A stretch of 64,000 bases of DNA from Corallococcus coralloides DSM 2259 (lineage in GTDB: Bacteria > Myxococcota > Myxococcia > Myxococcales > Myxococcaceae), in assembly GCF_000255295.1 (NCBI RefSeq), contig NC_017030.1, positions 9,088,328 through 9,152,327 on the forward strand. The letters run 5' to 3'. The notes under the pieces were generated by a model, which was not told the DNA's origin, ran no database searches, and saw only the letters and a list, made by a program, of their open reading frames with translations. The translations under genes were made by a program, and so were the position numbers. Below, one piece after another: positions 7,948 through 48,221 of this stretch (positions are counted from its first letter, which is position 1; every line of letters begins with the position of its first letter).

Positions 7948-8119
7948 CTTCAGCGAGGCAATGTGTCCGCGATAACAGGTTTCACCAAGTCCGGCGGATG
8001 GACAACCCGGTGAATTGTCGCGATGCGTATCGCCCCGGAGTGGGTCTCAAGACACAATGCGCAAGATGACCCGGCCGGGGTCCGAGACGAACCCGGAGCG
8101 GCCGGTGGGAGGCATACGG

Positions 8120-43422: not shown

Positions 43423-43565
43423 CCCCAATTCGCAACCATCTCCAGGCCCGGGTTCAATAAAACGCGCGCCGTGCGTGTGGGGACGACCCGGATTTCGGGG
43501 TCATTTCGTATCTCATTTCCAGAAGGGGCCCGGCCGGGCGCCTCCCATGACACGGAGCCTTCCTC

Positions 43566-44264
43566 GTGCTGCCAGGAACAGAGCGGTCAGTCTTGGAGGC
43601 CTTCCGCCGGGGTGACACCGCCGTGCTCACCCAGGTCTACCGCACCTATTCGCCTGAAGTGCTGCGCTACCTGTCCCGGCGCTTCTCCGTCCATTCGGAG
43701 ACCGGCACCCGCTCCGTCGCGCTCACGCCCCTGGACCTGGACGCCGCCCATCAGGAGACCTTCGTGCGGGCCTTCCGCCCCCACATGCGCCAGGCCTACG
43801 ACGGCGTGCGCCCCTACCTGGGCTTCCTGCTCACCGTCGCCCGCTCCACCGCCATCGACCTGATGCGCGCCTCCGGCCGCGTGGCCCGGGAGGCCATCCC
43901 CCTGGATGACGCGCCGGAGCTCACCCATGCCCCCACCGAGGGCAAGAGCCCGGAGGAGGAAGCCCTGGGCGCGGAGGTCCGCTCCATCGTGCGCCGCTTC
44001 CTGGAGGCCCTGCCCGACGAAGGGCGCGCCCTGGCCCAGCTGCGCTTCATGGACGGCCTGTCCCAGGAGTCCGCCGCCGACCAGCTCCAGCTCACCCGCG
44101 GCGAGGTGCGGGTGCGCGAGCGCCGCCTGCGGTTGCAGTTCACCGAACACCTGAAGGACTCGGGCTGGCTGGACAGCGATGTCGTGCCGGGACGCCTGCA
44201 ATTGGGCGCCCTGCTCGCCACCCTGGCCCTGCTGTGCGCCATCCCATTCGGGAGCCTCCCATGA
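43566..44264 (+). CDS. ECF-type RNA polymerase sigma factor with C-terminal membrane helix
   Basis: 232 aa. Region 2 (LTQVYRTYSPEVLRYLSRRF, HQETFVRAF..., YLGFLLTVARSTAIDLMR) and region 4 (LEALPDEGRALAQLRFMDGLSQESAADQLQLTRGEVRVRERRLR) are both present. The last ~22 residues (LQLGALLATLALLCAIPFGS) are a predicted membrane helix, absent from normal ECF factors. GTG 43566 has GGAG at 8 nt. The stop overlaps the anti-sigma ATG. It probably directs transcription of this operon, tethered at the membrane until released; that last point is inference. Confidence 0.88.
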   Translation: MLPGTERSVLEAFRRGDTAVLTQVYRTYSPEVLRYLSRRFSVHSETGTRSVALTPLDLDAAHQETFVRAFRPHMRQAYDGVRPYLGFLLTVARSTAIDLMRASGRVAREAIPLDDAPELTHAPTEGKSPEEEALGAEVRSIVRRFLEALPDEGRALAQLRFMDGLSQESAADQLQLTRGEVRVRERRLRLQFTEHLKDSGWLDSDVVPGRLQLGALLATLALLCAIPFGSLP

Positions 44265-45064
44265 AGTGGTACGAGCGACATGTGGACGCGGGACTGACGC
44301 GCTGGTCCCTGGGGGAGCTGTCCGCCCCCGAATCCTCGCGGCTCTTGCGCCACGCCCACGCCTGCGCCCGCTGCGGCGCCCGCTACGACAAGTGGGCCCG
44401 CGCCCACCGCGTCTTCGAGTCCGGCCAGACGGACACCCCCACCTCCACGGAGCTGGAGACCCTCACCGCCGCGGGGCTCGAAGCCGCCCTCAACGCCGCC
44501 TCGCCCCCGGACGCCGCTCCCGCCCGGTGGCCCACCCTGGCGGTGCTCGGCGCCACGCTCGCGGCCCTGTTCCTCGCGGTGGTGGTGACGCCCACGTCCG
44601 TTGGTCCCTCCGCCCCCACCGACCCCACCGAGCCCGAGTTCAGCGTCCGGGGGGCCGTGCATGACCCGGCGGTCCTGCCCGCCGTCCCGGTGGCCCAGGC
44701 CGTCCTGCGCGTCTTCTGCGCGAAGCCCGGCCAGTCGCTGCACGAGCTGCGCGCCGGGGCCGCGTGCACCCCGGGCGGCACGCTGGCCTTCGCGGCCGGT
44801 GCCCGTCCGCCCTACACCCACGTCGCGGTGCGCGTGCGCGCCGGCGGCCACGAAGAGGTCAACGGCCCCTTCCCGCTCAGCGGCAAGGCCGGCGAGGAGC
44901 GCCCGCTGGAGCTGACGGTCGCGCTGCCCGCGGGGTCCGATATGGCGGAGGTCACCGCCACGTTCTCAGAGCACCCGGACGCCACCCTGGCGGCCCTCCG
45001 TCAGGGCACGACGGAGGGGGTGGTGGTGCTCAGGCAGGAGGTCCGGGTAAAGGATTCTCCATGA
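44261..45064 (+). CDS. Anti-sigma factor with zinc-finger (ZAS-like) motif
   Basis: 267 aa. The cytosolic N-terminus carries His31-x3-Cys35-x2-Cys38 (HAHACARC), the ZAS motif of zinc anti-sigma factors. A membrane helix follows at 91-110 (TLAVLGATLAALFLAVVV), then a ~150-residue extracytoplasmic beta-rich domain with two Cys (VFCAKPG, AACTPGG). It would hold the upstream sigma factor at the membrane and respond to an envelope signal. The start overlaps the sigma gene (ATGA), and the stop overlaps the caspase gene (ATGA). Confidence 0.85.
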   Translation: MKWYERHVDAGLTRWSLGELSAPESSRLLRHAHACARCGARYDKWARAHRVFESGQTDTPTSTELETLTAAGLEAALNAASPPDAAPARWPTLAVLGATLAALFLAVVVTPTSVGPSAPTDPTEPEFSVRGAVHDPAVLPAVPVAQAVLRVFCAKPGQSLHELRAGAACTPGGTLAFAAGARPPYTHVAVRVRAGGHEEVNGPFPLSGKAGEERPLELTVALPAGSDMAEVTATFSEHPDATLAALRQGTTEGVVVLRQEVRVKDSP

Positions 45065-46791
45065 AGAAGCTGGAAGTCCTCCTGGGGGCGGCGCTGCTGA
45101 TGGCGGCGCCGGAGGCATTCGCGGACACCGTGCGGCGCGCGCTCGTCATCGCCCACAACGGCAGTGATGACCCGGCGCTCGCGCCGCTGCGCTACGCGGA
45201 CGACGACGGCGTGCTGTGGGCGGAGACGCTCAAGCGGCTGGGCGTGGAGACCACGCTGCTCGTGGATCCGGACGAGCCCACGCGCAAGGGCGGCAGCCTG
45301 GTGCTGAAGTCCGCGCAGGCGCCCACGCGCGCCGCGGTGGAGCAGGCCGTGAAGCGGCTGCAGGCGGCGACGCTCGCGGACCACGCGGCGGGACGCCAGA
45401 CGGACGTGCTCATCGTCTACGTGGGCCACGGCAACACGGACGACGCGGGCCGCGCCTACTTCACGCTCGCCGACGCGCGCCTGGACCGCGGCAGCCTCTA
45501 CTCGGAGCTCGTGGATCCGCTGGGCGCGGACTACGTGCACGTCATCGCGGATGCGTGCCGTGCCTCCGGCGTGGTGGGCAGCCGCGGCGGGACGCCGGAC
45601 GCGGCGGTGCTGGCGGAGTTGCGCGGCGTGCTCGCGCGCGAACAGCTGGCGTCGCGCCCCCACGTGGGCGCCCTCTTCGCGGAGAGCGAGGACGGCGAGA
45701 CGCACGAGTGGTCCCGCATCCGCGCGGGCGTCTTCAGCCACGTGGCCCGCTCCGGCCTGCTGGGCGGCGCGGACATCAACGGCGATGGCCAGGTGGAGTA
45801 CAGCGAGCTGGCCGCGTTCGTGGCCGCCTCGCTGCACGGCGTGAAGGGCATGCCCGCGCGCCTGTCCGTCAACGCCTTCGCGCCCACGGCCGAGCCCCGC
45901 CGCCCGCTGGTGGGCCCCGCGCCCGAAGGCCCCCGGGTCACCTTCCCCGCCGGCTTCGAGTACGCGCGCCTCTCCGTGGAGGACGCGGCCGGCCAGCGGC
46001 TGGTGGACGTGCGGCGCTCGCCGCAGCAGTGGACGCAGATCCTGCTGCCGCTGCGCGACGTGTACTGGGTGCGCGCGCCGGACGCGGAGGCGCGCGTCAC
46101 GCTGGCGCAGCTGTCCTCCGGCACGCCAGAGCTGCGCCCGCGCGAGCTTCAGGAGAGAGGTCCCGCGGAGGAGGCGCTCCGCCGGGGCCTGTTCGCCGTT
46201 CCGCTGGACCGGTCGTTCTACGACGAGTACGTCGCCGCCGTGGGGCTGGTGCCGGTGGACTTCAGCCACTCCTTCCAGCCGTCCGTCAGCAGCGGAGCGC
46301 GCTCGCCGCTGGCCGTGGCGGGGCCGTCCCACTGGACGTCCCGGTTGGAGCTGGGCCTGGGCGCGGGGCGCTCGCCGCTGGGGCTGGCGAAGTTCGCCGC
46401 CGGGCCCAGCCTGTCGTGGCGCACGCCGTCCTCCATGGACCTGCTCTACTACGGCGTGCGCGGGGCGTACGGCGTGACGCCGCTCGCGGCCCGGGACGGC
46501 ATCCGGCTGCACCGCTTCACGGTGGAGGGGCTGGTGGGACTGGACCGTCCCGCGAACACGCCGCTGTTCGCGGAGGTGGGGCTGGGCTGGGGAATCCTGG
46601 GCCTCACGGCGCCGGGCTTCCTCCAGGCGGACACCTCGGTGCTCACCGGCCACGTGGCCGCGGGCGTGACGGGGCGGTTCGCGGGCATGCCCGTGCGGCT
46701 GTCGGCCCAGGTGGGGCTGGATCGCGTCACCGCCAACGGCCAGACCGGAATGGACAGGCAGTACGGCCTGGAGATTTCCCTCAGGCGCTAG
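45061..46791 (+). CDS. Exported caspase-like (peptidase C14) protein with EF-hand
   Basis: 576 aa. Signal peptide MKKLEVLLGAALLMAAPEAFA. The caspase-fold domain has the catalytic His123 (YVGHGN) and Cys166 (ADACRAS). An EF-hand loop follows, DINGDGQVEYSE (238-249), complete at its Ca2+ ligands. The C-terminal half (~300-576) is beta-rich with barrel-like strands (WTSRLELGLGAGRSPLGL, GLEISLRR end), suggesting outer-membrane association. Caspase-like proteases in bacteria are usually cytosolic; this one is exported and co-translated with a sigma/anti-sigma pair. Confidence 0.88.
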   Translation: MKKLEVLLGAALLMAAPEAFADTVRRALVIAHNGSDDPALAPLRYADDDGVLWAETLKRLGVETTLLVDPDEPTRKGGSLVLKSAQAPTRAAVEQAVKRLQAATLADHAAGRQTDVLIVYVGHGNTDDAGRAYFTLADARLDRGSLYSELVDPLGADYVHVIADACRASGVVGSRGGTPDAAVLAELRGVLAREQLASRPHVGALFAESEDGETHEWSRIRAGVFSHVARSGLLGGADINGDGQVEYSELAAFVAASLHGVKGMPARLSVNAFAPTAEPRRPLVGPAPEGPRVTFPAGFEYARLSVEDAAGQRLVDVRRSPQQWTQILLPLRDVYWVRAPDAEARVTLAQLSSGTPELRPRELQERGPAEEALRRGLFAVPLDRSFYDEYVAAVGLVPVDFSHSFQPSVSSGARSPLAVAGPSHWTSRLELGLGAGRSPLGLAKFAAGPSLSWRTPSSMDLLYYGVRGAYGVTPLAARDGIRLHRFTVEGLVGLDRPANTPLFAEVGLGWGILGLTAPGFLQADTSVLTGHVAAGVTGRFAGMPVRLSAQVGLDRVTANGQTGMDRQYGLEISLRR

Positions 46792-46883: not shown

Positions 46884-48221
46884 GTGTCCCGTTCATCCCT
46901 CGTGTACACCGCGCTGTCGGGCGCCGTCGTGGCCACCGTCCTGCTGACCGGCTGCGACCCCATCTGCACGAATGGGGTCTCCAAGCCCGGGCAGGGCCAG
47001 GTGACCCGGAACGCCGCCGGCACCTGCGTGCAGCTCGTGGTGACCCGCCCCGACGCCGGGGAGGACGGCGGCGCGGATGGCGGTGACGGGGGCGACGGGG
47101 GCGAGCTGCCCGACGCGGGCGACGGGGGTGGCGAGCCGGTCCCGGACGGAGGCGCGTGCGGCGCCGGGCCGGGCTGGACGACGCGGGTGCTGGACGAGGA
47201 GAGCGACAACATCTCCGGCAGCTTCGTCTTCGACGCGCAGGGCGTGGGCCACTACGCCTATTCGAAGAAGGAGCTCCTCTACGTCGGCACCACCCGGCCG
47301 GGCGACGTGCCGGTGCAGGTGCAGGGCGTGACGCGCCCCTTTGAAATGTCCATGGCGGTGGCCGCGGATGGCACGCGGCACCTGATGTTCGAGCAGGGCA
47401 CCGCGGTGGGCTACGCGCACGACACGGGCGGGGTCTGGCAGGCGCAGCTGCTGGTCACGGGGTGGTCCTCGGCGCTCGCGCTCGATGCGCGGGGCGAGCC
47501 GCACCTGCTCATCGGCCTGCTCCCTCCCCAGGTGGGCTACGTGCTCGGAACCCGCGACGCCCAGGGGAACTGGACCATGACGCCGCTGGCGGGCGTCGGG
47601 CCCCGGGGTGACCGCGAGCGGATGGTGGTGGATGCCGCAGGGCACATCCACATCGCGCTGGTGCGCTCGAACAGCCTGGACAATCAGGTCGTGTACGTGA
47701 GCAACGCGTCGGGGACCTGGACCGAGGAGCCGCTGGACTTCTGGCTCCTCATGAGCTCGCCGCGCTACCGGGTCACGCTCGAGGTGGACGCGACGGGGCG
47801 GCCCTCCCTGGTGGGCTCCAACAGCCAGGGAGCATGGCTGTGGACGAAGGAGGCCAGCGGCTGGAAGTCGTACGGGCTGGGGGCCTACATGAGCCGGGGC
47901 CCCGCGCTGGTACGCAACGCCGGCTCCGCGAATGTCCGTCACGTGCTGCTGGATGACGCGGACGTGAACGCGTTCGAGAACGGGAGCACCAGCCAGGTGG
48001 TCGTGCGGAGGATCCAAGGCACGTCCGCCTCCAGCGCGACACCGCCGCTCGTCCTGGAGACGCGGGACGGGGGCAACGCGTTCCCCGGTCCCTCCGCGCT
48101 CCACGTGGATGACCAGGGCCGGTTTCAGGCGGGCTTCTTCTACGTGCACTACGAGAAGGACCTGGACGGAGTCGCGCGGCCCACGACGCGCGGCCTGCGC
48201 TACGCGCAGTACTGCCCGTGA
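46884..48221 (+). CDS. Lipoprotein with beta-propeller-like domain, 445 aa
   Basis: Lipobox LLTGCDP, two conserved Cys near the N-terminus, a DGGADGGDGG linker, then repeats of beta segments (GSFVFDAQGVGHYAYS, MSMAVAADGTRHLMFE, ALALDARGEPHLLIG, MVVDAAGHIHIALV) typical of a six- to seven-blade propeller. Function unknown. GTG 46884 is proposed. It follows the caspase operon by 92 nt and may be part of the same regulon. Confidence 0.75.
   Translation: MSRSSLVYTALSGAVVATVLLTGCDPICTNGVSKPGQGQVTRNAAGTCVQLVVTRPDAGEDGGADGGDGGDGGELPDAGDGGGEPVPDGGACGAGPGWTTRVLDEESDNISGSFVFDAQGVGHYAYSKKELLYVGTTRPGDVPVQVQGVTRPFEMSMAVAADGTRHLMFEQGTAVGYAHDTGGVWQAQLLVTGWSSALALDARGEPHLLIGLLPPQVGYVLGTRDAQGNWTMTPLAGVGPRGDRERMVVDAAGHIHIALVRSNSLDNQVVYVSNASGTWTEEPLDFWLLMSSPRYRVTLEVDATGRPSLVGSNSQGAWLWTKEASGWKSYGLGAYMSRGPALVRNAGSANVRHVLLDDADVNAFENGSTSQVVVRRIQGTSASSATPPLVLETRDGGNAFPGPSALHVDDQGRFQAGFFYVHYEKDLDGVARPTTRGLRYAQYCP

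Follow-up and report, generated by a model that had tools for sequence, protein, structure and literature searches.

Predicted cleavage of an anti-sigma factor by an exported caspase encoded in the same myxobacterial operon

What would an exported caspase do in an operon with a sigma factor and its anti-sigma factor? The question is raised by a 64,000-nt stretch of the Corallococcus coralloides DSM 2259 genome (contig NC_017030.1, positions 9,088,328 to 9,152,327; hereafter the window, whose first letter is position 1), where genes for a sigma factor, an anti-sigma factor and a caspase occupy positions 43566–46791 on the (+) strand. A sequence-only reading had proposed that proteolysis here frees a membrane-tethered sigma factor. 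Our analysis supports a switch controlled by proteolysis, with the anti-sigma factor, not a tethered sigma factor, as the cleavable-looking protein. The caspase probably serves as the site-1 protease and cuts the anti-sigma factor after Arg130, in a predicted autoregulated envelope switch. Computation shows the gene order, the promoter and the folds, catalytic and calcium-loop residues that are intact, and a conserved basic site that only caspase-linked anti-sigma factors carry, while we infer the identity of the cutting enzyme, the role of calcium, the signal and the steps downstream.

Our main new result is a linker motif in caspase-linked anti-sigma factors. The anti-sigma factor of the window (ATG 44261 to TGA 45064, (+) strand; 267 aa) is a single-pass protein, as indicated by its zinc-binding anti-sigma (ZAS) motif, a weak NF052375 match (1e-4) and its AlphaFold2 (AF2) model. 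It is assigned to the class I (ZAS) type even though its zf-HC2 match (0.056), like that to NF052375, falls under the curated cut-off: the zinc motif H31-x3-C35-x2-C38 (44351–44374) is invariant in 18 aligned sequences. The membrane helix (residues 92–108; 44534–44584; hydropathy 2.74) is a helix in the AF2 model as well, so both features that had been read from the letters held up. Residues 109–142 are disordered in the model and link this helix to a periplasmic beta-sandwich domain (residues 148–263; 44702–45049; pLDDT ~90), for which Foldseek returned weak beta-sandwich matches only (CARDB/Ig-like, E 0.003). Within the periplasmic linker lies the predicted caspase cleavage site, E126-F-S-V-R130|G131 (44636–44653), whose R130 and G131 are invariant amid an otherwise variable stretch of the alignment.

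Specifically, the motif [DE]-[FWL]-x-[AVSPT]-[R/K]-[G/S] was present in its strict form in 49 of 60 non-redundant caspase-linked anti-sigma factors, nearly all the others having a relaxed form. Among 32 unlinked zf-HC2 membrane proteins, which came from the same genome and from others and in many cases are encoded beside a sigma factor, none had it (Fisher p 1e-15 without correction for relatedness). Shuffled linkers contained it in 1.6 of 60 cases on average (maximum 7). The residues most often found were F, W and L at P4 (31, 11 and 7), A, V and S at P2 (27, 10 and 7), R and K at P1 (45 and 4) and G and S at P1' (43 and 6). The motif lies 7–24 residues from the transmembrane helix, its flanking residues vary, and it recurs in linked anti-sigma factors of distant families, even beyond the reach of the A3 anti-sigma profile. 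Four zf-HC2 membrane proteins of the same genome that do not stand beside these caspases (L153, L156, L164 and L170) have another RGG/RTG stretch, e.g., YSPMRGGADG, ~30 residues past the transmembrane helix.

The linker motif resembles the site of the paracaspase MALT1, whose cleavage consensus is L-X-[P/S]-R|G (PMC4659944; PMC6207715). The third gene product (ATG 45061 to TAG 46791, (+) strand; 576 aa) matched Peptidase_C14 (PF00656) above cut-off (2.3e-7) and begins with a predicted signal peptide (residues 1–21; 45061–45123; MKKLEVLLGAALLMAAPEAFA), followed by the caspase domain (residues 22–262). This domain has a clan CD fold, with legumain, metacaspase 9 (AtMC9) and MALT1 at Z 17–20 (VIA); in Foldseek, MALT1 was the first match and an insect caspase was also found. 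The link to solved caspases rests on fold, because a caspase profile run against PDB sequences yielded EF-hand proteins only and matched no solved caspase. Among 60 non-redundant family representatives, on which all caspase residue counts are based, the catalytic His123 (GHG; 45427–45429) and the D164-A-C166 stretch with the catalytic Cys166 (D[AS]C; 45550–45558) are present in 60/60. The His-Cys dyad and the fold are those of clan CD and Peptidase C14, and the exported caspase with intact His and Cys that had been proposed is confirmed.

An Asp at position C-2, here D164, is a feature of basic-specific clan CD proteases. Asp49 (45205–45207), which we take to be equivalent to MALT1 D365, is proposed as the second acidic residue of a basic-P1 pocket and is likewise invariant ([YF]ADDD in 60/60). 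With both S1 pocket candidates invariant, specificity for Arg/Lys may be expected. The caspase also has a basic site of its own: R175-G176 (45583–45588), the proposed auto-processing site, stands where a disordered loop starts behind the catalytic Cys and borders on a stretch of low confidence (residues 176–193, pLDDT <50 in AF2), and R/K-G is found ~10 residues past the catalytic Cys in 59/60 caspases. Caspases and metacaspases are known to be processed in this loop.

Exported caspases of a second, only distantly related group (superfamily II) also lie behind sigma/anti-sigma genes, with several members per genome and up to ten caspase matches in some genomes. In this group, the caspase loop has the sequence R-x-K-G, and examples from the linkers of the linked anti-sigma factors are NRIKGG and TRTKGL. 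By eye, 27 of 28 superfamily II linkers had K-G or K-S; automatic calling gave p 3.5e-8 with relatedness ignored, and the caller, which took the first [RK][GS], mis-called several linkers (e.g., L070, L141, L131, L290 and L302). Since K-G appears in both the loop and the linker of superfamily II, the two sites differ together between the superfamilies.

The caspase domain also carries an EF-hand calcium loop, D238-INGDGQVEYS-E249 (45772–45807; DINGDGQVEYSE), in which all ligand positions are present and are retained in 60/60 representatives. The loop has the 12 residues, ligands at positions 1, 3, 5 and 12 and flanking helices of an EF-hand, forming a helix-loop-helix (residues 224–258) between helices 224–236 and 247–258 in the AF2 model; the Pfam EF-hand match is weak (0.06), and a profile search placed an Entamoeba calcium-binding protein on this stretch (E 0.004). 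The calcium loop was complete, as had been read, and calcium dependence of the caspase may be inferred. Downstream follow an Ig-like beta domain (residues 268–347; 45862–46101; AF2) and a predicted eight-stranded outer-membrane beta-barrel (residues 428–575; 46342–46785; AF2 strands), whose Foldseek matches to OmpX/OmpA/NspA (E ~1e-5) suggest a small outer-membrane barrel. The feature common to the family is export, not the barrel, because other members terminate after the Ig-like domain or carry C-terminal hydrophobic helices. An assignment to defence systems was dropped because PADLOC gave only a weak generic caspase match.

Several observations weigh against cleavage of the anti-sigma factor by the caspase. 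Because the linked set served both to define the motif and to count it, weight attaches only to the comparisons with controls and shuffled linkers. The R-G of the caspase loop could be structural; the R/K switch between superfamilies may have occurred only once, in the distant past; and the few superfamily I cases with K mostly disagree between loop and linker. A barrel located in the outer membrane would force the caspase to span the periplasm, other members being helix-anchored or anchorless. Finally, a linked anti-sigma factor was not found for three caspases (L114, L128 and L147), L128 lying at a contig end.

These points leave room for other explanations, the first of which places the caspase among the products of the regulon, for example as a lytic protease or one for envelope quality control, with another, trypsin-like periplasmic protease cutting the linker and activating the zymogen at its R-G loop. 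One outside enzyme would then account for R/K-G in both proteins, and the operon is autoregulated; we nevertheless consider this unlikely, since the motif is restricted to caspase-linked anti-sigma factors and the acidic D49/D164 pair of the caspase itself suits a basic P1. Because the linker looks like the loop of the caspase itself, EFSVRG might instead occupy the active site as an inhibitory pseudo-substrate, so that release rather than cleavage signals. The P1' G/S and the disordered linker are substrate-like, and the residues around the short motif vary, which makes an inhibitory role very unlikely.

Even less likely is the original proposal, in which a sigma factor tethered to the membrane is freed by proteolysis as part of a calcium-sensing pathway for killing self or prey. 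The sigma factor (GTG 43566 to TGA 44264, (+) strand; 232 aa) is of the extracytoplasmic function (ECF) type, with sigma2 and sigma4 regions only: TIGR02937 (1.5e-16) and Sigma70_r4 matched above cut-off, Sigma70_ECF was also matched, and Sigma70_r2 fell below its cut-off. Its C-terminal hydrophobic tail (residues 211–232; 44196–44261) is conserved in clade 1 and its sister clade 2, with a Kyte-Doolittle-19 value of 2.09 in the window and 1.2–2.2 in relatives, compared with 0.29 in one tail-less relative. Its pN/pS ratio (0.40 vs 0.24 for the core) indicates weaker constraint than on the core together with some purifying selection, and at ~16 hydrophobic residues the short tail is a plausible tail anchor. 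In contrast, the tail is gone in one ortholog (L044) and absent from group-3 paralogs and most distant linked sigma factors, no invariant basic motif was found ahead of it in the sigma alignment, and no killing-related partner or other support for self or prey killing emerged in the analysis. Thus, conservation of the tail, which the original proposal required, holds for clades 1 and 2 and not for the family: the tethered sigma factor is a lineage feature, and the tail, being lost or absent in many linked sigma factors and under weaker constraint than the core, is an accessory outside the core mechanism. Four distant linked sigma factors (L112, L116, L136 and L141) have hydrophobic C-terminal tails of their own that are unrelated in sequence, suggesting that tail acquisition may have recurred.

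Least probable of all is that the R-G motif has a role in structure or export within the anti-sigma family and the caspase has unrelated substrates: linked anti-sigma factors partly share a homologous periplasmic domain, but the motif persists in anti-sigma factors too divergent for the A3 profile, its distance from the transmembrane helix varies and superfamily II reads K-G.

With cleavage by the caspase as the preferred reading, the switch could operate as follows. The anti-sigma factor would use its ZAS domain to keep the ECF sigma factor at the inner membrane. A signal from the envelope, possibly sensed by the outer-membrane barrel, would activate the exported caspase, probably via Ca2+ on the EF loop, and the caspase may process its own loop at R175|G176. 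As a site-1 protease, it would then cut the juxtamembrane linker of the anti-sigma factor after Arg130 (EFSVR|G). Degradation would be completed by a site-2 protease together with proteases of the cytoplasm, and the released sigma factor would transcribe, besides its own operon, the genes of a few mostly exported proteins.

An ECF-type promoter precedes the operon (ACGACC at 43483–43488, an 18-nt spacer and CGTAT at 43507–43511, (+) strand), followed by a ribosome-binding-site-like ACGGAG (43552–43557, (+) strand), similar in several orthologs. The promoter is retained in 23 aligned orthologous upstream regions. Its pattern had 11 genome matches against 2 for a reversed control pattern; in genome G118, it hardly exceeded the control (6 vs 4). 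Matches conserved from one genome to another lie ahead of genes for lipoproteins (L228/L253; L231/L246/L234), for a small secreted protein (L225/L242) and for one further protein (L222/L257), as well as ahead of the operon, suggesting an envelope regulon. The predicted target lipoproteins L231, L234 and L246 have EF-like loops (e.g., DLDGNGVLDDAE in L231), which may be a second connection to calcium. At L226, L228 and L253, the pattern stops 7–8 nt 5' of the start codon, a distance that suggests leaderless transcripts. Within the window, a second match (ACAACC-N18-CGTAT; 8002–8030, (+) strand) lies 26 nt 5' of a 208-codon open reading frame.

How widely is this arrangement conserved? The 4-nt ATGA overlaps at both junctions, as first read from the letters, are exact, and a protein search of 145 genomes of the order gave matches in 115, including ~50 full-length orthologs at ≥58% identity. 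The order sigma, anti-sigma, caspase was retained in the extracted loci; essentially all clade-1 loci with three genes had overlaps of 4 nt at both junctions (the single exception having a 20-nt gap), and the sister clade had mostly short gaps. Named relatives with the operon include Corallococcus, Myxococcus, Pyxidicoccus, Citreicoccus, Hyalangium and Archangium. Phylum-wide, the caspase family was found in 107 of 195 genomes; in the fetched loci, the caspase was nearly always beside a sigma/anti-sigma pair, co-directional or divergent, and an anti-sigma candidate, mostly adjacent, was located for 141 of 144 strong family members. The operon is conserved far beyond chance, and the three-gene neighbourhood is real and broader than first claimed.

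The same genome (G000) has further sigma/anti-sigma/exported-caspase sets (L055–L058, at 7868450, 1780268, 3065666 and 9742956, and L323). One operon, with a caspase at 61% identity and myxobacterial gene order, came from a record titled Comamonas sp. KCTC 72670 (L094), an assembly that, given this identity and gene order, is probably misnamed or contaminated. Just 3' of the operon lies a lipoprotein gene (46884–48221) that is probably outside the core module because it is only partly conserved among orthologous loci; no tRNA was found near the operon.

The view that no described system has this set of genes did not stand. Operons pairing sigma-70 factors with metacaspases were reported in 2012 from M. 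xanthus, Anaeromyxobacter, Haliangium and Sorangium, with a suggested link to autolysis (PMC3501461); the gene pairing is the same, and such operons encode four of the five M. xanthus metacaspases, whereas an anti-sigma factor, calcium, a cleavage site and a mechanism are not mentioned in that paper. Regulated intramembrane proteolysis of the RseA/DegS/RseP type likewise involves an ECF sigma factor, a single-pass anti-sigma factor and a juxtamembrane periplasmic first cut, which is proposed here, but the bacterial site-1 proteases described are the serine proteases DegS, DegP, SipS/SipT and Prc (PMC7593790) instead of an operon-encoded clan CD cysteine protease. No paper proposing a caspase as an anti-sigma site-1 protease was found in the open-access literature searched. 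ECF54 and EACC systems with CHAT/caspase neighbours also place ECF sigma factors near caspase-like proteins, with proteolytic control proposed, and the EACC systems differ in their other partners and in their proposed immunity or apoptosis-like functions (PMC8999054; PMC8195603). In cell-surface signalling (TonB receptor/FecR-type anti-sigma), an outer-membrane barrel protein is similarly linked to an inner-membrane anti-sigma factor, although the barrel of the window is small, eight-stranded and fused to a protease, and is not a TonB transducer. MALT1 and the metacaspases/orthocaspases share with the window caspase the clan CD fold, the Asp at C-2 and an expected basic P1, and MALT1 also has a similar site and an Ig-like domain after its caspase domain. 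In contrast to MALT1, the window protein is bacterial and exported, has an EF loop between two caspase-domain helices and an outer-membrane barrel, and is only 18% identical over the aligned fold.

More generally, it seems to us an even call that, in myxobacteria, site-1 cleavage of anti-sigma factors falls to a dedicated class of exported caspases that are regulated by calcium and have paracaspase-like specificity for R|G (or K|G), the linker copying the activation loop of the caspase and several parallel copies per genome wiring separate sigma factors to separate caspases. If so, a cysteine-protease class would join the known site-1 proteases, and a bacterial envelope pathway would run on MALT1-like Arg-Gly cleavage logic. 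A physiological substrate would be at hand for a large set of bacterial caspase homologs, which have so far been guessed to act in cell death, and bacteria with complex life cycles would use caspases as gene-activating signalling proteases rather than as killers.

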